Assembly (NCBI GenBank): GCA_016872355.1
Contig: VGZY01000016.1
Span: forward strand, 1 to 46,129
Direction: 5' to 3'
Length of the DNA: 46,129 nt
Origin: SAR202 cluster bacterium
Lineage (GTDB): Bacteria > Chloroflexota > Dehalococcoidia > Lucifugimonadales > VGZY01
In this document: positions 4,452 through 32,806 of the stretch, piece by piece
How the letters are laid out: each line of letters opens with the position of its first letter
Numbering within the stretch: position 1 is the first letter of the stretch
Position numbers and translations under genes: made by a program
The notes under the pieces: generated by a model
What the model saw: the letters and a program-made list of their open reading frames with translations, nothing else
Database searches by the model: none
What the model was told of the DNA's origin: nothing

Positions 4452-5420
4452 ATGGTAGTCGCCGAGAAGAACCGCATCGTGGACCAGTTCAACGACGATG
4501 GCTACTACGTCTACCGCGGCCTGCTGGACCCGAAGACCGATCTCCAGCCGGTCTACGACGAGTATGAAGCGCTCCTCGACCGCCTCGCGAAGCAGTGGCA
4601 CAGGGAAGGCAAGCTTTCCAGTGACTTTGCCGGCATGCCGTTCGGCCCAAAAGTGACGAAAATCGCCATCGAAACGAAGGGCAGCTACTACCAGCACCTG
4701 GACATTTCCCTCCCTCTAAAGGCCATCGCGCACGACAGTGGAATCCACTGCGGCCCTGCGGTCTTCAACTTGCTCCGCAACAAGAAGCTGCTGGACGTCG
4801 CCCAGATGTTCGTCGGCCCCGAGATTTACTCCAACCCGGTCCAGCATGTGAGGATCAAACCCCCTCAAGACGTCCTGCCGCAGGAGCTAAAAGACAACAC
4901 AATCGTCGGGCGCACTTTCTGGCACCAGGACCAGGGCGTCATTCAGTCCGATTCCGACAACTCCAACATACTCACGGTCTGGCTTCCGGTCACCGAGGCC
5001 ACTGTTGAGAATGGCTGCCTCACCGTCGTGCCGAAGAGCCATAAGGAGGGGCTGGACCTGCACTGCATGACGGAAAAGAGGCTGGGCATCCCCGACGAAC
5101 GCATCGGCCCAAACACACTCCCGCTTCCGATGAGTCCAGGCGATGTGCTCTTCATGACGAAGTTCACCAAGCACGCTTCGCTGGAGAACGTCAGCAGGGA
5201 TATCCGATGGAGTTTCGACCTCCGCTACCAGCCCATCGGCCATCCGACCGGCCGCGCCGCCTTCCCCGGCTTCGTCGCCCGCAGCCGGGCCCATCCCGGG
5301 TCGGAGCTCCGCGACTGGAAGGTGTGGGAGGCGAAGTGGCTGGAGGCCCGCCGCGCCCTCGCCGAGGGCGGAACCCCCAACTTCCGCCGCTGGGACCCGA
5401 ACGACCCGATGTGCGCGTGA
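4452..5420 (+). CDS. Phytanoyl-CoA dioxygenase (PhyH) family, Fe(II)/2-oxoglutarate-dependent oxygenase
   Basis: Probable non-haem iron dioxygenase that hydroxylates an unknown substrate while converting 2-oxoglutarate to succinate and CO2. The metal-binding HxD is at H158-D160 (FWHQDQG), the distal His is probably H241 (TKHASLENVS) and the 2-oxoglutarate-binding Arg probably R258 (FDLRYQ). The double-stranded beta-helix core includes VENGCLTVVPKSHKEG. The ATG at 4452 is chosen because AGGAGG lies about 9 nt upstream; an in-frame ATG at 4407 has no good ribosome-binding site and lies right behind the palindrome. That gives 322 residues, usual for the family. The position after sucAB, whose product consumes the same co-substrate, is notable. 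The family is often expanded in marine and soil heterotrophs; the substrate cannot be inferred. Confidence 0.85.
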   Translation: MVVAEKNRIVDQFNDDGYYVYRGLLDPKTDLQPVYDEYEALLDRLAKQWHREGKLSSDFAGMPFGPKVTKIAIETKGSYYQHLDISLPLKAIAHDSGIHCGPAVFNLLRNKKLLDVAQMFVGPEIYSNPVQHVRIKPPQDVLPQELKDNTIVGRTFWHQDQGVIQSDSDNSNILTVWLPVTEATVENGCLTVVPKSHKEGLDLHCMTEKRLGIPDERIGPNTLPLPMSPGDVLFMTKFTKHASLENVSRDIRWSFDLRYQPIGHPTGRAAFPGFVARSRAHPGSELRDWKVWEAKWLEARRALAEGGTPNFRRWDPNDPMCA

Positions 5421-5422
5421 AG

Positions 5423-5464
5423 GGGCATAGGGTACGGGATATAGAGTACGGGGTACGGTTAAAC
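5423..5464. repeat. Degenerate 7-bp tandem repeat
   Basis: Six consecutive 7-nt units fit an approximate consensus GGGTACG (units include GGGTACG twice and GAGTACG). The array starts directly after the dioxygenase stop codon. It resembles heptamer arrays at 8271-8312, 12693-12727 and 17621-17655 in period but not in sequence. Confidence 0.6.
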
Positions 5465-5536
5465 AGTAAGCAAAGACGTTTTCATCGGTAGGGGTGGGTC
5501 TGAGACCGGCCCTCGCTGTTCACAAGGTAGCGCCGG

Positions 5537-7256
5537 ATGACGAGAATGACCTACCGCACAATCGTCGAAAAAGGCCTCCCTGCCATCATGCGGGACGGCA
5601 CGGTCCTGCGCGCCGACGTGCACCGCCCGGACGCGCCCGGCAGGTTCCCCGTCCTCCTCGACCGCACTCCCTAAAGCACTACGCGAAACACCTATGTGGA
5701 AAAGGCGCCGAAACTTGCTGAGCGCGGCTACGTGGTCGTGCTGCAAGACGTGCGCGGCCGTTTCGCGTCCGACGGCGAATTCAAGCCAGGCTTCTATAGC
5801 TCCGACACGTGCGATGCCGACGACGGCTACGACACCGTGGAATGGGCCGCGGCGTTGCCGTGGTCGAACGGCAGCGTGGGCACCATCGGCGGCTCGTATG
5901 CAGGGTGGACGCAGTGGGAGCTGGCAAAGACGCGCCCTCCTCACCTCGAGGCGATGCTGCCGCAGGCGATCTGCGCCGATCTGCTCGACCGCGAAATGGG
6001 CGGCGTCCTGAGCCTGGGCCGCGTCCTGTGGTGGACGATGAACACGTTCGCGCCGGAAGAGCGGCGCAGGCAGAATCTGCCGTATGGCCCGTACACCGAG
6101 GACCACGCGGTGGCGCTCTGGGCGTCCAAAGAGCGCAGCAAGTGGCTCTGGTACCTGCCCCTGATGGAAATACCGGACTACGCGATGCCCGGCATGGGTA
6201 AGCACTGGCGCCGGTGGCTGCAGGACCACACCACGGACCATCTCGGCTTCGAGAAGGCGCATCCCCAGGTGGACGTGCCCGCACTGCACACGACGGGCTG
6301 GTACGACCAGCAGATAGGCACAATCAAGAACTTCACCGGCATGGTGAAGAACGGCATGACAGCCCACACGGGCCGATAACCAGTACCTGGTCATCGGCCC
6401 GTGGACGCACGTCAGCCACAGCCTTGCGCGCAAGACGGGCGACGTAGACTTCGGCCCTGAGGCGGAGCTGGACTACTACGAGATCGCCGACCACTGGTTC
6501 GGGAAGTGGCTCAAAAGCGAGAAGACGGCGGTGGCCGATTGGCCGCACGTGCGCTAATTCGTCATGGGCGCGAATACTTGGAGGACGTCCGATACCTGGC
6601 CCCTGCCCGGCACAAAGTACACGCCGTACTACTTGCACAGCAGAGGCAACGCAAACACGCCCTTCGGCGACGGCTCGCTCTCGGTCAGCGCGCCGGAGGC
6701 CGAGCAGCCCGACCGTTACGACTACGACCCGCGCGATCCCGTTATGACGCTCTATTCGCCCCCCGGGCAGCAGGAGCCACGCGACCAGCGCGCGCTCGAC
6801 GACCGCAGCGATGTGCTCGTCTACGCCACGCCGCCGCTGGAGCGGGCGGTGGAGGTTGCCGGCCCGGTGTTAGTAAAACTCTTCGCCGCCACGTCGGCGC
6901 GTGACACCGACTTCACGGTCAAGCTGATCGACGTGTGGCCGTCCGGCTTCGCACAGGAGCTGTGCTACGGCATCGTCCGCGCCCGCTATCGGGAATCGTA
7001 CACGGAGCCGTCCTTGCTTGCGCCCGGCAAGGTGTACGAGTACACCATCCAAGTGAACCCGACCGCGAACCTGTTCAGGCCCGGCCACCGCATCCGCGTG
7101 GACATATCGAGCTCGGACTTCCCCAACTTCGACCGCAACCACAACACAGGCGGCAACGACTACTCGGAGTCCACGCTAATCACCGCCCACCAGACCGTTT
7201 ACCACGACGCTGCAAGGCTGTCGCACATCGTCCTGCCGGTGAGGCCGGCGCCATGA
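5537..7256 (+). pseudogene. CocE/NonD-type serine hydrolase, broken by two stops and one frameshift
   Basis: Read through its lesions this is a full-length (about 573 codons) CocE/X-Pro dipeptidyl-peptidase-like hydrolase. Visible features are the N-terminal MRDGTVLRADVHRP, the nucleophile motif GGSYAGWTQW, the acid region TTGWYDQQIGT, NQYLVIGPWTH, and the C-terminal jelly-roll end HRIRVDISSSDFPNFDRN. Lesions: TAA at 5672-5674 where family members have Tyr in RTPY; an apparent 1-nt deletion near 6374-6376, after which NQYLVIGPWTH continues in the next frame; TAA at 6555-6557 where the family has Tyr in VRYFVMG. Both stops differ by one base from Tyr codons. The 3' end overlaps the glutaredoxin start (ATGA). 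The retained similarity implies recent decay; sequencing error could explain the frameshift but hardly all three. Confidence 0.85.
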
Positions 7257-7538: not shown

Positions 7539-8258
7539 ATGACCACCACTCGCAAGATCATCGAAGCGGGAGACCTCGCCCCGGATTTCACCCTGCCGGA
7601 CACTGATGGCGCGCCCGTCAGCCTGTCCAGCTACCGCGGCAAGAAGCTCGCCATCTTCGTGTGGGGCTCCTGGTGCGGCTGCCGCAACCAGCTCCCCGCG
7701 TGGCAGGAGCTCTACAACCAGCACGCCGGGCAGGGTCTCGAAGTACTCGGTGTGTCGATGGACTCCGAAGGGCCGTTCCGCGTGACTCCTTTCATTACGT
7801 GGGCGAAGACCACTTTCAAGACTGTGGTGGACGTGCGCAACACTCTGACGGAGTTGTACGGCCTAAAGGCGGTGCCCACCTGCTACCTGGTTGACGAGAG
7901 CGGCGTAGTGCGGTTCAAGCAGCACAAGGGGTTCGACATCCGCAAGGCGGAGTCCGCAGCGGTCATCGAGCGCTGGCTCGCCGGCCGGCCTCCCATCGCG
8001 GAGGGGCTGCCGCCGTCCGCCCCCGTGGGTAAAGAGGTGTACGACGGACACGCGGTCTATTTGAAGGGACTTGAAGCCTTCCGCGCCGGGAGACGCGAAG
8101 AGGCGATCGCCATCTGGCGCGACGGCCTCGCGAAAGACCCGGACAACTTCATCCTGATGAAGCAGGCGTGGTCCGCGGAGAACCCGGACGCCTTCAAGGC
8201 TGCGCTGGAGAAGTTAACGGAGCAGCCCGCGCCAACCTCCCAGTCCTCCATACCTTGA
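7539..8258 (+). CDS. TlpA/AhpC-TSA-like redoxin with C-terminal helical (TPR-like) tail
   Basis: Thiol-disulfide or peroxiredoxin-like protein of 239 residues. The redoxin domain (about 10-150) begins GDLAPDFTLPDTDG and contains GSWCGCRNQLPAW, LEVLGVSMDSEGP and a cis-Pro region AVPTCYLVDESG. The active site reads Cys46-Gly-Cys48, one residue shorter than the usual CxxC of TlpA proteins. No signal peptide is evident, so it is probably cytosolic. Residues from about 170 form helices (GLEAFRAGRREEAIAIWRDG) that look like one TPR unit. The ATG at 7539 is preferred because an upstream in-frame start would overlap the glutaredoxin gene. The array at 8271 follows. Confidence 0.8.
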   Translation: MTTTRKIIEAGDLAPDFTLPDTDGAPVSLSSYRGKKLAIFVWGSWCGCRNQLPAWQELYNQHAGQGLEVLGVSMDSEGPFRVTPFITWAKTTFKTVVDVRNTLTELYGLKAVPTCYLVDESGVVRFKQHKGFDIRKAESAAVIERWLAGRPPIAEGLPPSAPVGKEVYDGHAVYLKGLEAFRAGRREEAIAIWRDGLAKDPDNFILMKQAWSAENPDAFKAALEKLTEQPAPTSQSSIP

Positions 8259-8270
8259 CCAACGTCCAGC

Positions 8271-8312
8271 TTCTAACATCCAACTGCTAACTCCTAACTT
8301 CTAACTGCCAAG
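8271..8312. repeat. Degenerate 7-bp tandem repeat between convergent genes
   Basis: Six 7-nt units of approximate consensus TNCTAAC (TTCTAAC occurs twice, also TGCTAAC and TCCTAAC) fill the space between the redoxin and RidA genes. The last units overlap the 3' end of the RidA gene, whose stop codon is taken from the repeat. Confidence 0.65.
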
Positions 8313-8696
8313 CACCGCCTGCGCGGTGATCTCTATGTGCAGGCCGGGCTCCGCGAGGGCTCGGACCTCTACGTATGAATTCGTTGGGTATTGCTGCCGG
8401 GGGAAGAACTCGTCCCATATCGCTTTTTGCGTGTCGTCGATCGGCCAATAGTCCTTCATGTTCACGAGGTACGTCGTGAGCATCACGATATTCGCGGACG
8501 TGCCGCCCTCGGCCTCAACGACGCGCGTGATCCTCTCCAGGCACACACGCAACTGCTCCATCGGCGGCCCGCCGTCGGCCTTGGAATAACGCGCGGTCAC
8601 GCCGGAAAGATAGAGCGTGTTACCCGCCCTGATCGCCCGCACGTAGGTTGGGCCGGCCGGATAGATTGCCGAATGGTTGTTGCGAACAATGGTCAT
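8301..8696 (-). CDS. RidA/YjgF/YER057c family protein
   Basis: A 131-residue RidA-superfamily protein; members hydrolyse reactive enamine/imine intermediates or have related pathway-specific roles. The fold signatures are AIYPAGPTYVRAIRAGNTLYLSG at the N-terminus, the central QLRVCLERITRVVEAEG.....IVMLTTYLVNM, and the C-terminal YVEVRALAEPGLHIEITAQAVL with Arg and Glu in the usual pocket region. The exact spacing of the Arg differs slightly from E. coli RidA, so it may be a Rid subfamily with another substrate. The start ATG at 8696 has AGGGGG about 5 nt upstream. It begins 13 nt after the purF-like gene, so the two are very probably one operon. Confidence 0.87.
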   Translation of the reverse strand: MTIVRNNHSAIYPAGPTYVRAIRAGNTLYLSGVTARYSKADGGPPMEQLRVCLERITRVVEAEGGTSANIVMLTTYLVNMKDYWPIDDTQKAIWDEFFPRQQYPTNSYVEVRALAEPGLHIEITAQAVLGS

Positions 8697-17623: not shown

Positions 17624-17729
17624 GTAGTTGGTCGTAGGTAGTTAGCCAGAAGCCAAGACAGAAGAGGGGCCTCGCGTCTGCGAGGCCCCTCCTGGTTTGG
17701 CCAATTACTAACTACCTACGACCAACTAC
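17624..17729. repeat. 21-bp perfect inverted repeat made of 7-bp units
   Basis: The arms at 17624-17644 and 17709-17729 are perfectly complementary over 21 nt. Each consists of heptamers such as TAGGTAG and TTGGTCG. They flank the terminator stem at 17664. The element sits between two convergent genes. Confidence 0.8.
17664..17691. terminator. Bidirectional terminator stem
   Basis: A 12-bp perfect stem (GAGGGGCCTCGC and its complement) with a GTCT loop lies midway between the stops of the convergent transaldolase-like and oxidoreductase genes. TGGTTT follows on the plus side. Confidence 0.7.
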
Positions 17730-25121: not shown

Positions 25122-27539
25122 ATGGGCAGGACAAAGAGAAGCGTGGCGATTGTACTCATTGCCGCGATATTCGCAGCGATGGTATCGAGCTTTGCCTTTT
25201 CGTCCCGCGCCTATGCAGAGGCCGGCATCCCGCGCGACTTCATCGGCGTGGTGCTGAGAGTCAACGGCGACGTGTTGACGGTCCAGGCGGAGTTCGGGAT
25301 AGTAGACATCCTCCCTAACGTCAATACACGTGTGGTGCTCCCTCTGAGTGAGCGGGCCACGATCGCAGACCTGGTAGTCGGCGACGAGGTGGCAGTATCC
25401 CTTACAGCGGACAACTCGCTGGTCGTGGACAGGGTGCTGCTCATACCGAGCAAATCGAAGTACCGCCACATCTCCGGGCAGGTTGTGGGCATGACGGAAG
25501 GGTCCGTCACAGTCCGCATACCCGACACGGACGACATCTCACTTCTCACAAGTCCGCTGACGAGGACCATCAACCGTGGGTACCCGGCAAAGCTTGCCGT
25601 TGGTAGTTACGTGGTGGTTGTTGTGGCCCGCGACCTCACTTCCGGCGGGGGTAGCGAAGCGATTGAGATCAACATCGTTCCGCCGCCATCGCAGACGGTC
25701 GTCGCCCCCGCGCCGGAGCCGACACCCGCGGCCAGGAATGTAGCAGCATCCGTCTCGATTGTGGGCGTATTCGAGGGCATCGACGGCGCCGGTAACCTTG
25801 TCGTAAGCGGGACAAGGCTTGCGATGACGAGCGCCACGAAGCTGGAGGAAGGGCTCGTAACCGGCCAACAGGTAACCGCGAATGCAGACATGACATCAGA
25901 CGGGAAGTTGACCGCCGTTCTCCTCGTCCCGGTGAAGCTCTCAGCAGAGAACGGGTCCCGCGTGACGCTGGACGGTATCTTCGATGGGATGATCCGTTCA
26001 GGAATCTGGGTTGTGAGCGGGAACATCGTCATTGTGGACAAGAACTCTGACACGGACGGCATCCCGGATGTTGGCCAACGCGTGAAGGTAAATGCGAGCA
26101 GGCTGCTCGATGGAACACTGGTTGCCCGCGAGATTGAGAACATTCGGACACAGGAGACGGCTCGTCCGGAGCCACAATCGGTAGAAATGGTCGGAGCGTT
26201 CCGGGGCACGGACAGCTATGGCAATTGGCTTGTAAACGGCATCCGGGTTGCGGTCGACTCCAGGACCAGGCTCGAAGGCCGCCCTGCCATCGGCAGGCTG
26301 ATCAGGGTCCGTGCGTCCGTCAGTCCGTCCGGCGTACTGGTTGCAACGTCCATCACCGCAGTCGCTTCGGAGTCATCAACGGTCAAGAAGACGGTCCAGG
26401 TGAAGGGGCTCGTCCAGCGCGTGGACGAGAGCGGCACAATCACGGTCAACGGCGTACAGGTCCAGATCGGGCCGCTTTCCGAGGTATCCGGCAAGCCCGA
26501 GGTGGACAAGTACGTGGAGGTGGAAGCGCAACTCCAGAACGACGGCACCCTGCTGGCCCGACTGGTCAGCGCGTACGGATCAGCCGACGCTGCCCGCTCA
26601 GACCGAAGGGTGACGATCGAAGGCGCTGTTCAAACTGTGCGGGAAGACGGGACCATGGTTGTCAACGGCATCTCAATCACGCTAGACAAGGATACAGTGA
26701 CGGAAGGCGAGACGATCCATGGATCACTGGTACGCGTCGAGGGGGTCCTGAACCCGGACGGCTCTGTGCTAGCGATAGTCGTGAAAGGCGAGAACCGACT
26801 TGCAACGCAGAGCGGCACGGAGGTAAGGATCGAAGGCTCAGTAGACTCCGTGAAGCGCGACGAGTCCGGCAAGCCGGTCGGCATCGTCGTGGACGGCGTT
26901 CCGGTGGACCTGAGGAGCCTGACGGACGTGGCGGTCAAGCTGAGCGCAGGCACACAGGTCATGGTAAACGGCGTTATAGCCGATGGCACGATAGTGGCGC
27001 GCAACATCGGCCCCAGGGCTACTGTTGCAACTGCACCGCCTACTGTCGTCATTACAGGAGTCATCGATAAAGTTGGCGTCAACGAGGTGAGCAAGATAGA
27101 CCTCCTCGGCGTCAACGGCATCGAAGTATCGGTGCAGATATTCACGTTCGTGGAAGGGGAGCTGAAGAAGGGCAATCTGGCGAGGGTAACCGGTTACCGG
27201 TCGGGCACGCAGTATATCTCTACGGCCATCCGGGCCTCAGAATTGAAACGCGATGCGGCAGTCTCTCCCGGGGAGGACGCCTCCGGCGCCGCGGATACCG
27301 TGACGGAACAGGTAAAGGGGCGGGTCGATGTCCTGCAGCTCGACTCGCGCGGCCGTCTGGTAGCGCTCGTGGTCGCCGGAAAGCGAATGGCCGTGGACGA
27401 GAACACGGTTATAGATGGAGAGCTTGAGAGGAGAAGTCGCGTTGAGATTGAGGCAAGGGTGGCAGGCCTGGGGCTCACAGCAGTATCGGTCAAAGTCTTG
27501 CCCGCCGATCCGGGCTCCGGCGATAGTGTAACGCCCTGA
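25122..27539 (+). CDS. Exported protein of ten DUF5666-like beta repeats
   Basis: An 805-residue protein with a signal peptide (hydrophobic 7-25, cleavage near AYA-EA at about 32). The remainder consists of about ten ~60-75-residue beta-rich repeats. Each begins with a V.G.....-type strand (e.g. SIVGVFEGIDGAGNLVV), then a variable turn with DG or DR, then G..V.V.A....DG.L.A..I. DUF5666 is a family of unknown function, common in exported proteins of Chloroflexota and other groups. The repeats differ in sequence, unlike recent tandem duplicates. There is no terminal membrane anchor or wall motif, so the protein may be soluble or associate through other proteins. It follows the lipoprotein by 99 nt on the same strand. 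Confidence 0.8.
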   Translation: MGRTKRSVAIVLIAAIFAAMVSSFAFSSRAYAEAGIPRDFIGVVLRVNGDVLTVQAEFGIVDILPNVNTRVVLPLSERATIADLVVGDEVAVSLTADNSLVVDRVLLIPSKSKYRHISGQVVGMTEGSVTVRIPDTDDISLLTSPLTRTINRGYPAKLAVGSYVVVVVARDLTSGGGSEAIEINIVPPPSQTVVAPAPEPTPAARNVAASVSIVGVFEGIDGAGNLVVSGTRLAMTSATKLEEGLVTGQQVTANADMTSDGKLTAVLLVPVKLSAENGSRVTLDGIFDGMIRSGIWVVSGNIVIVDKNSDTDGIPDVGQRVKVNASRLLDGTLVAREIENIRTQETARPEPQSVEMVGAFRGTDSYGNWLVNGIRVAVDSRTRLEGRPAIGRLIRVRASVSPSGVLVATSITAVASESSTVKKTVQVKGLVQRVDESGTITVNGVQVQIGPLSEVSGKPEVDKYVEVEAQLQNDGTLLARLVSAYGSADAARSDRRVTIEGAVQTVREDGTMVVNGISITLDKDTVTEGETIHGSLVRVEGVLNPDGSVLAIVVKGENRLATQSGTEVRIEGSVDSVKRDESGKPVGIVVDGVPVDLRSLTDVAVKLSAGTQVMVNGVIADGTIVARNIGPRATVATAPPTVVITGVIDKVGVNEVSKIDLLGVNGIEVSVQIFTFVEGELKKGNLARVTGYRSGTQYISTAIRASELKRDAAVSPGEDASGAADTVTEQVKGRVDVLQLDSRGRLVALVVAGKRMAVDENTVIDGELERRSRVEIEARVAGLGLTAVSVKVLPADPGSGDSVTP

Positions 27540-27639: not shown

Positions 27640-27706
27640 CTCCAAAACCAATCAGGGCCAGAAATGCCGCGCACCGCACTACTGGCCCTGATTGGCGTAT
27701 TTGGAG
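27640..27706. terminator. Long hairpin about 100 nt after the DUF5666-like gene
   Basis: CCAATCAGGGCCAG (27648-27661) pairs perfectly with 27682-27695. An outer CTCCAAA/TTTGGAG arm extends the stem with a 4-nt bulge. The loop is about 20 nt. It could end transcription of the exported-protein gene, but it lacks a U-tract and may be a repeat element. Confidence 0.55.
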
Positions 27707-27801
27707 ATAGCTCGCGCGCCCCTCGTTACAACGGTTGCCTCTTGTCCGTTTCGCTGTCCGAACTTGCGTAAGGCTGCCTCGAACGCGCCACATCCGGGCA
27801 A

Positions 27802-28117
27802 CCATGGGCGTCCGTGATGCGGGGTTGATTTGGGGAGCGCTGAAGGCGCGGGATAACTCAGCCCAGGGTGGAGTGCCGAAGGCTTTGCGAAGGCACGCAG
27901 CCCTGGGTTACCGGATGGAAACAATTCTTAGCCCTGTAGGGGCGAAATACTTCCTGGTCACGCAAGAGATCATCTCGGCCCTTCAGGCCCTTAAGAAATT
28001 CTTCGGTCCGTTACCCAGGGCTACGCCCACTCCGCAGAGCCTCCGTGGGCTCCACCCTTGGCTTAGATAGGCCGCGCCTTCAGCGCACCCCAAGTCGGCC
28101 CCACTCCATGGGCGTCC
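27802..28117. mobile_element. MITE-like inverted-repeat element with 12-bp flanking direct repeat
   Basis: Two arms of about 130 nt, 27821-27952 and 27968-28102, are imperfect reverse complements sharing GAAGGCGCGG, CAGGGTGGAG and GCCCTGGGT blocks in the same order. Internal hairpins (GCGCTGAAGGCGC, GCCCTGTAGGGGC) recur. The exact 12-mer CCATGGGCGTCC lies in direct orientation on each side (27802-27813 and 28106-28117), which the inverted symmetry does not explain and which looks like a target duplication. No coding sequence is present, so mobility would need a transposase supplied elsewhere. Confidence 0.6.
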
Positions 28118-28215
28118 AGCGGTTCCCTTGTGATGCCACGGCCGGATTTCTGGTGGGTAATGCACGCTGAAGGTGAACAGAATTAGTTAGGGAAGTTCGG
28201 GGCAAACCTGCCCGC

Positions 28216-29823
28216 CTATTTGTAGTCCACCCAGATGTCCACGTGGCTGATCGTCAGCGGCGGCGTGATCCGCTCGTCGCGCTTGACCAGCTTCACCTGC
28301 ACCTCCCGCGTGCCGACGGCCAGCAACTTCGGGTCCAGCTTCCAGACTAGCCAGCTGTTCTCATCCACGTCTGATGGATTGCCCGGGTCCTGTGCAGCCT
28401 TGTTCGTTACCGTGTAAGCGCCGAGGTCTTTACCATCCAGCGTCGCGGAGACTACGTCGGCCCCCGGGGAGAAATGCTCCATGCGGATGTGCAGCTCCGC
28501 CCCGGCCAGCGTGCCGGCCTTCGCCGCTGTAGGCACGTCATCGTACATGGGTACCTGGAACGTCGGCCCATCGCCGGTGAGGGTGCGGTGCAGCTCCACG
28601 GGCGTCTCGCCGTAGATGCGGTCGTCGCGGTCCGCGTAGTCGCGCTGGCTGCCACGAGGGGGAATCATGCGATGGACGTTGGAGTAGCACTTTCGCGTGC
28701 CCTTGAGCGTCACCGGCGATCCCATGGTCGTGAATAGGGCCTGATTGGTGTCCGTGTAGCCGTGCCAGTTAAAGACGTAGATGCCGGATGCCCCCCTGCT
28801 GTGGAACTCCTGCGCCAGCGCGCGGAACCACGCCGTGCGCCAGTCCTTACCTTTCACCAGACGGTCGGTCGCCTGACGGCCGTCGAAGTCCCAGCACGGG
28901 TAGAGCTTGATGTCCCTGCCCTGGCACAGCTCTGCGGACCTCTCAACCTCAAAGCCGGGGTCCGTGCCGGAGTTGCCGCCCCCGATGATTATGTCGCACA
29001 GCCCTTCCTTCGCCCATGTCTCGATGTCGTAGCCGATGCGGTTGCAGCTCTCCAGCGTTGCGGCCACCCGCACAGCGAGCCTGAACGGCCTGCCGCGCTC
29101 CTTCCCGAGCTTGTTTGTCATGTCGCGCATTGTGCGCATCAGGTCTGTGAGGGTGTAGCGGAGTCGGTACTCGTCGCCCCAGGGCAGGTGAAAGGCGTGG
29201 CGTTGCCAATCGAGCTCCACACCGTCCCAGTCCGCTATCCGGCATGCCTCCTCGATAAACTTCAGCTTGAAATCGCGGACCTCCGGAATTGCCATATTCC
29301 AGGAGGTGGCGCACCAGCCGGGGGCGTGCTTCTCGCTCAGGCACCACTCCGGATGGTCCAGGCGCATCTTCGTGAACCGCTCGCCTTTGGACTTGAGCAT
29401 GGCCTCGATGGTCTGGTACGTCCAGAAGTGCTGGTCGTTCATGCGGATGGAGGGGTAGACATGCATTCCCAGCCCGTGCCCGTGGTCCGCGATGGCGGCG
29501 TATGGGTTCTCCCCGCGCTCCCAGTACTCGCGGACCGTCTCCGAGATGTTGCGCTTGAGGACGGCGTCGTACTTCCTGTCGCTTGAGTCGCCGATCATCT
29601 CCACGATCTTCGTAGGCCAGGTAGCCTCGTGAATGCCGAGGCTGAAGAAGAGCGCGTCCACCTGTGTGTTCCGGATGGGGCCGAAGGTCTTCTCGAGCAG
29701 CATTTCGGCGGTCTGCGGATATCCGGCGTAGATCAGCGGCGCGCCGTCCCAGTTGCAGATGATGCGGTAGCTCGGAACCTTGCCGGAATCGCTCTTCTTG
29801 GGCCTGGCCTGGGTCTGTGTCAT
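28216..29823 (-). CDS. TIM-barrel glycoside-hydrolase-like protein with C-terminal beta domain
   Basis: Unassigned 535-residue protein. The N-terminal part (to about 370) has features of a glycoside-hydrolase-type TIM barrel: DGAPLIYAGYP, GHGLGMHVYPSIRMND, the acidic WDGVELDWQRH at about 200, GLCDIIIGGGNSG, and a terminal SGIYVFNWHGYTD. Acidic residues in the GVELDWQ strand end would be the catalytic candidates. The last ~130 residues form beta strands (LAGAELHIRMEHF, SHVDIWVDY), probably a carbohydrate-binding or sandwich domain. No signal peptide is seen. The start ATG overlaps the stop of the frameshifted oxidoreductase gene (ATGA), so the two were co-translated. The substrate is unknown. 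Confidence 0.7.
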   Translation of the reverse strand: MTQTQARPKKSDSGKVPSYRIICNWDGAPLIYAGYPQTAEMLLEKTFGPIRNTQVDALFFSLGIHEATWPTKIVEMIGDSSDRKYDAVLKRNISETVREYWERGENPYAAIADHGHGLGMHVYPSIRMNDQHFWTYQTIEAMLKSKGERFTKMRLDHPEWCLSEKHAPGWCATSWNMAIPEVRDFKLKFIEEACRIADWDGVELDWQRHAFHLPWGDEYRLRYTLTDLMRTMRDMTNKLGKERGRPFRLAVRVAATLESCNRIGYDIETWAKEGLCDIIIGGGNSGTDPGFEVERSAELCQGRDIKLYPCWDFDGRQATDRLVKGKDWRTAWFRALAQEFHSRGASGIYVFNWHGYTDTNQALFTTMGSPVTLKGTRKCYSNVHRMIPPRGSQRDYADRDDRIYGETPVELHRTLTGDGPTFQVPMYDDVPTAAKAGTLAGAELHIRMEHFSPGADVVSATLDGKDLGAYTVTNKAAQDPGNPSDVDENSWLVWKLDPKLLAVGTREVQVKLVKRDERITPPLTISHVDIWVDYK

Positions 29824-32721: not shown

Positions 32722-32806
32722 TGTAGCCTGCGCGATTTATCGCGCCCGTGCCGCGAACAGGCGTCGCTGGAGAACAAAACAGGCGCGATAAATCGCGCAG
32801 GCTACA
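32722..32806. repeat. 25-bp perfect inverted repeat (MITE-like)
   Basis: The arms at 32722-32746 and 32782-32806 are perfectly complementary over 25 nt (TGTAGCCTGCGCGATTTATC and on). Each arm contains its own near-palindrome GCGCGATTTATCGCGC. The loop is 35 nt. It lies in the 184-nt gap between the two isomerase-like paralogues. The size and structure fit a small non-autonomous element or a hairpin-type intergenic repeat. Confidence 0.75.

Follow-up and report, generated by a model that had tools for sequence, protein, structure and literature searches.

Hairpin binding on single-stranded DNA, tyrosine-mediated cleavage and rejoining are established for the transposases of IS608 and ISDra2 and for TnpA-REP. 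The IS200/IS605 elements, to which IS608 and ISDra2 belong, combine an HUH/Y1 transposase with simple subterminal hairpins near their ends. REPINs and BIMEs, associated with RAYT (TnpA-REP, class 2 of TnpA-Y1), are inverted pairs of hairpin units dispersed between genes, and the RAYT gene itself is flanked by the same units; each unit, a REP, is a single hairpin of 20–40 bp, usually with a GTAG foot (PMC3116915, PMC6006769, PMC8266576), and the tyrosine motif of TnpA-REP is Y---NP (PMC6006769). TIRYT elements, or TIRtrons, are likewise tyrosine transposase genes within long terminal inverted repeats, with some dispersed dimers and with Acidobacteria among their hosts; most published examples were later placed in subclass 2.1 (and 2.2, 2.5), and their repeats bear a GGGGWSAS motif (PMC3733652). 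TnpA-Y1 subclass 1.2 has the signature DH[IV]H, WQ and Y---Q--HH in proteins of about 148 aa and is described as generally lacking terminal structures and REP (PMC6006769), a generalisation in the literature that membership does not demand. In a 2010 paper RF01687 appears as a candidate RNA from Acidobacteria and Lentisphaerae (PMC2864571); as Acido-Lenti-1 it is filed in Rfam as an sRNA gene.

The window, the whole 46,129-nt stretch of SAR202 cluster DNA analysed here, lies on contig C16 of assembly G000 (3.07 Mb, 133 contigs; C numbers denote its contigs). It contains an element that is very probably the non-autonomous miniature form, REPIN/BIME- or MITE-like and with paired arms, of a Y1 (HUH, IS200-like) element, and that is probably moved in trans as single-stranded DNA. 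Its kinship, as a non-autonomous unit with paired arms, to a Y1 element is well supported, and we infer its movement. As in REPINs and BIMEs, two inverted units are separated by a short spacer, the pair is dispersed, and the same units flank Y1 genes (on C50 and C73). The units differ from strict REPs, 20–40 bp hairpins with a conserved GTAG/GTRG foot, in being arms of about 100–115 nt with three hairpins each, and no invariant GTAG was found at the hairpin foot among the aligned arms; the transposase carries the class 1 motif Y---Q--HH rather than Y---NP. The arms are set apart from those of TIRYT by description, and an overlap with its Acidobacteria group is possible (PMC3733652). The features of the locus are listed below, where R1 is a covariance model of the arm and H1, H2 and H3 are its inner, central and outer hairpins.

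27796–28127, no strand: whole element, at the minimum extent given by the inverted repeat (true ends may lie further out); fold, dispersed copies
27836–27950, − strand: left arm, three hairpins, R1 58.0 bits
27970–28087, + strand: right arm, three hairpins, R1 45.8 bits
27836–27850, − strand: H3 of the left arm
27862–27907, − strand: H2 of the left arm (CCCAGGG...CCCTGGG)
27930–27944, − strand: H1 of the left arm
27951–27969, no strand: centre, 19 nt, the gap between the two R1 matches and the place of tnpA in autonomous copies
27976–27990, + strand: H1 of the right arm
28014–28061, + strand: H2 of the right arm, with one mismatch in the outer stem (CCCTTGG)
28073–28087, + strand: H3 of the right arm
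27836–27907, − strand: RF01687 (Acido-Lenti-1) match, 40.7 bits against a cut-off of 37, spanning H2 and H3
28043–28087, + strand: weak RF01687 match in the right arm, 23.2 bits, under the cut-off
27802–27813, + strand: left 12-mer CCATGGGCGTCC, outer motif of the arm, reverse-complemented compared with other arms
28106–28117, + strand: right 12-mer CCATGGGCGTCC, outer motif of the arm, in the usual orientation
27739–27799, no strand: outer left sequence, matched at 80% over 61 bp by the C3 copy

The inverted repeat formed by 27796–27873 and 28050–28127 is 76% complementary over 78 nt, and the repeat spanning 27796–28127 is the longest among those reported for the 46-kb window; complementary blocks also lie further inside, for example 27896–27911 and 28010–28025. 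The segment 27790–28130 folds at −213 kcal/mol, compared with −135 (sd 6) for shuffled sequences (z = −12.5; none of 100 shuffles was as good). The long imperfect inverted-repeat arms claimed in an initial annotation are therefore real and far above chance, and those it placed at 27821–27952 and 27968–28102 do exist, although the true arms are slightly longer and internally structured. Only short frames in the ORF list cross the element. It is bounded by two converging ORFs, 25122–27539 (+), which encodes a DUF5666 protein according to Pfam, and 28216–29823 (−), which had no Pfam match. A 20-bp hairpin at 27648–27695 (CCAATCAGGGCCAG...CTGGCCCTGATTGG), possibly a terminator, stands between the DUF5666 gene and the element.

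Within each arm, H1 (e.g. CAACCCTTTCAGGGTTG) is followed by a spacer of about 20–25 nt, H2 (CCCAGGG...CCCTGGGCT), about 10 nt and then H3 (e.g. CAATCCCGTTGGGATTG). The stems vary by lineage and covary: 96.0% of cells are paired, 13 of 14 pairs changed on both sides, and the covariation score is 0.452, against 0.158 for shuffles and at most 0.097 for slid controls. The genome-wide mapping of copies that had been proposed earlier found the element dispersed in G000, in many more copies and half-copies, the best being 85% identical over 251 bp. Paired copies on C16 (the window), C22 and C69 have arms and centre in common at unrelated sites, which suggests that both arms spread together as one unit.

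Weak R1 matches (21–32 bits) on C58, C59, C124, C104, C32, C83 (161–244) and C35 form a second, shorter-arm family; several lie near the starts of short contigs, and they are perhaps another repeat of like kind. At two pairs of contig ends, L009/L004 (end of C15, start of C120) and L018/L014 (ends of C3 and C20), H1 of the arm is interrupted by sequence common to the two contigs, and the C3/C20 insert opens a frame resembling an IS110-type transposase. Other mobile elements seem to insert into arm hairpins; insertion of other mobile elements into REPs has been reported (PMC1525189).

Only two genes of G000 match Y1_Tnp (PF01797), and each is flanked on both sides by outward-facing arms, on contigs different from that of the window element:

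C50: tnpA gene 8037–8486; arms 7893–8006 (−) and 8528–8642 (+)
C73: tnpA gene 5115–5564; arms 4982–5095 (−) and 5582–5696 (+)

The two proteins are IS200-like transposases, 59% identical, encoded by intact frames with conserved catalytic motifs (the C50 TnpA has 150 aa; in the C73 protein R replaces the Q of the motif). Searching with one sequence alone retrieved no solved structure; a profile of 34 relatives matched the solved IS608 transposase and its kin (IS608-type) at about 2e-11. The non-coding element had been expected to need a helper transposase, and a plausible Y1 helper, flanked by the same arms, is present in its genome.

GTDB species genomes were scanned with the two G000 transposases, which yielded 80 loci, 82 together with the two from G000. 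By the records' own labels these 80 come mostly from Verrucomicrobia and Planctomycetes, with others in Acidobacteria, a Lentisphaerae record, Hydrogenedentota, Bacteroidetes, Chlamydiae, Fimbriimonadaceae, a few Proteobacteria and one record labelled as an archaeon. The HUH motif DH[IV]H and WQ are present in all 82 proteins and Y---Q--HH in 80, with a mean length of 150 aa; as assigned by motif, not by tree, they match the subclass 1.2 signature. They resemble that subclass in DHVH, WQ, Y---Q--HH, a length of about 150 aa and low copy number (PMC6006769). Published members are mostly from Cyanobacteria and Bacteroidetes, whereas those found here are from PVC bacteria, Acidobacteria and others and have three-hairpin arms, a sample picked by similarity to the two G000 proteins and not representative of the Cyanobacteria and most Bacteroidetes members (PMC6006769).

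In a model-free comparison, an inverted repeat of at least 40 bits joined the 450-bp flanks of tnpA at 65 of the 82 loci. Mismatched flank pairs reached 40 bits in 874 of 6642 cases (13%), as expected if the arms are shared between genomes. The flank repeats have one architecture, the three-hairpin arm. R1, to which 42 of the loci contributed, finds an arm within 450 bp at 80 of the 82, at least one outward-facing arm at 78 and outward-facing arms on both sides at 68, so the published lack of REP or terminal structure in subclass 1.2 does not hold for these loci. The fair figures, because of those 42, are the ones for the 40 loci outside model building: 38, 36 and 26, respectively. Many downstream arms start at the tnpA stop codon. 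Each of 12 genomes, all holding such a tnpA by selection, contains between 4 and 85 R1 arms (85 in G205, 68 in G207). Away from tnpA, neighbouring arms in the fetched loci are arranged −/+ in 31 cases, versus 13 +/− and 1 ++, and the outward pairs have gaps of some tens of bases, a layout like that in the window. Among 148 genomes of the window's class, arms were found in 3 and such a tnpA in 4, with G000 alone in both lists, numbers too low for power; the element looks horizontally acquired in this class. A paired-arm copy (−/+) also occurs in G173, of the same class (L157, 1302–1589), a draft about 92% complete, where a search at E 1e-10 detected no tnpA of this kind.

A mechanism can be proposed by analogy with IS608/ISDra2 and TnpA-REP. 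In the autonomous form, outward-facing arms lie on either side of tnpA (arm–tnpA–arm); the window copy is arm–19 nt–arm. Most likely, TnpA would recognise the arm hairpins on single-stranded DNA and cut near the arms via its tyrosine, and the paired unit would be joined elsewhere in trans, with no target-site duplication made. Observed directly are the structured, covarying arms, their dispersal in copies, their link to tnpA both in G000 and in other phyla, and their outward pairing; TnpA action on the arms, a single-stranded route and present activity we infer. The element shares with IS200/IS605 the HUH/Y1 transposase and hairpins near the ends; it differs in its composite arms, which form inverted repeats.

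The copies in G000 are modest in number and diverged (best 79–86%), and the family may accordingly be dormant. This divergence, the truncation of several copies and the mismatch in the central stem of the right window arm would also suit a relic, that is, arms left behind after loss and decay of tnpA and immobile now. The two intact tnpA frames with their conserved catalytic motifs speak against it, as do the full-length paired copies with a common centre at unrelated sites, by which the pair once spread as a unit. We regard a relic as somewhat unlikely, and it would be compatible with the paired-arm miniature of a Y1 element as the end state of the latter.

RF01687 covers H2 and H3 of the arm, and over these two hairpins the Acido-Lenti-1 RNA has the same sequence and structure as the arm (PMC2864571); in the present loci it falls within a transposable-element arm, which has H1 as an extra hairpin. 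In G000 it matches 28 places at E ≤ 1, nine of them above the cut-off. At L077 (Thermoanaerobaculia) both arms around tnpA match it, at 46.6 bits each, and arms of several other loci give matches under the cut-off. A literature search that reached few subscription journals found no paper linking RF01687 to a transposase. These matches suggest that an orphan Rfam "RNA" is really part of a transposable element. An opposite reading takes the arms as structured RNA (an Acido-Lenti-1 sRNA) or as hairpins working at the RNA level (terminators, or mRNA-end stabilisers between converging genes), their mobility being incidental. It draws on the above-cut-off match in the left window arm, on the position between converging ORFs, and on the strong fold and the covariation, which would be expected from RNA and from single-stranded DNA alike. 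An sRNA gene, however, would not need to flank tnpA symmetrically in opposite orientations as the arms do, and at L077 RF01687 itself sits in both arms around tnpA. We consider an RNA identity improbable; a secondary RNA role of the arms is possible.

On the transposable-element reading, we incline slightly to the view that subclass 1.2 TnpA and the three-hairpin arms constitute a distinct and widespread Y1 system of PVC bacteria, Acidobacteria and others, with a composite three-hairpin end, and that Acido-Lenti-1 would be its DNA substrate and not an RNA gene. With these findings an orphan Rfam family acquires a probable identity, and a transposase subclass reported to lack a partner acquires a probable one in DNA; both are open to a simple cleavage assay. 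The three-hairpin arm, its tie to transposases with the subclass 1.2 motifs and the reinterpretation of Acido-Lenti-1 are new here, and no priority is claimed.

The initial annotation took the two 12-mers to be a target-site duplication. Parts of inverted arms are expected in inverted, not direct, orientation. When 25 arms of G000 are aligned in one orientation, conservation of CCATGGGCGTNC stands out beyond the third hairpin. Some 15 of the 25, at unrelated sites, match 9–12 of the 12 motif positions outside H3, all with one orientation relative to their arm, and the motif of the C44 arm is identical to that of the right window arm. The left window arm is the only one of the 25 scored in which the motif is reverse-complemented relative to its own arm, and it is this flip that turns an expected inverted pair of 12-mers into a direct one; a small local inversion is probably the simplest account. 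Homology with the C3 copy runs on beyond the left 12-mer (about 27739–27799). As to whether the 12-mer is a common repeat, which had been raised as an objection to a duplication, it is not unique to the site, with four exact copies of CCATGGGCGTCC in the assembly, three of them inside arms of the family, and 59 copies at up to one mismatch, against 19 for a reversed control pattern. A longer outer motif, CCATGGGCGTGCAATGGCA, was considered as a separate repeat or target and discarded: allowing 3 mismatches, it occurs no more than six times, and three of these occurrences fall in arms.

Between the 40-nt outer flanks of the 68 transposase-bearing loci, the mean longest direct match is 5.29, against 5.02 for mismatched pairs, which is no excess; this is a weak test of duplication, and its outcome weakly supports duplication-free transposition. 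A search for empty sites in 59 relatives found none: outside G000 only one relative matched, within the neighbouring coding region alone, and no relative had the locus. In the genus of G206, relatives aligned to nearby genes, mostly at 75–79% and at 90% in one stretch, and synteny did not extend across the arm pairs. With the 12-mer being part of the arms, its left copy flipped and the homology continuing beyond it, a target duplication is not supported, which corrects a tempting misreading of an exact direct repeat of 12 bp next to inverted arms; the rest of the earlier reading, a dispersed non-coding inverted-repeat mobile element with a helper, stands. A classical MITE of a DDE transposase, with a 12-bp target-site duplication framing its terminal inverted repeats, would account for the exact direct repeat at both ends of the long inverted repeat but is highly improbable, given that such a MITE has a fixed-length duplication directly outside its inverted repeats whereas in other copies this 12-mer forms part of the arm, that the transposase flanked by the arms is a Y1/HUH enzyme, and that the 68 autonomous relatives have no such repeats in excess.

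Other repeats were seen elsewhere in the window. A 44-bp inverted repeat at 17624–17729 (GTAGTTGGTCGTAGG...) is 80% complementary, its halves 18 nt apart, and one of 28 bp at 32722–32806 (TGTAGCCTGCGCGATTTATCGCGCCCGT) is 96% complementary, with 29 nt between the halves. A sequence near the C3 copy, GGGCGCGATGAATCGCGCAGGCTACA, resembles the repeat at 32722–32806, which may represent another dispersed repeat family.
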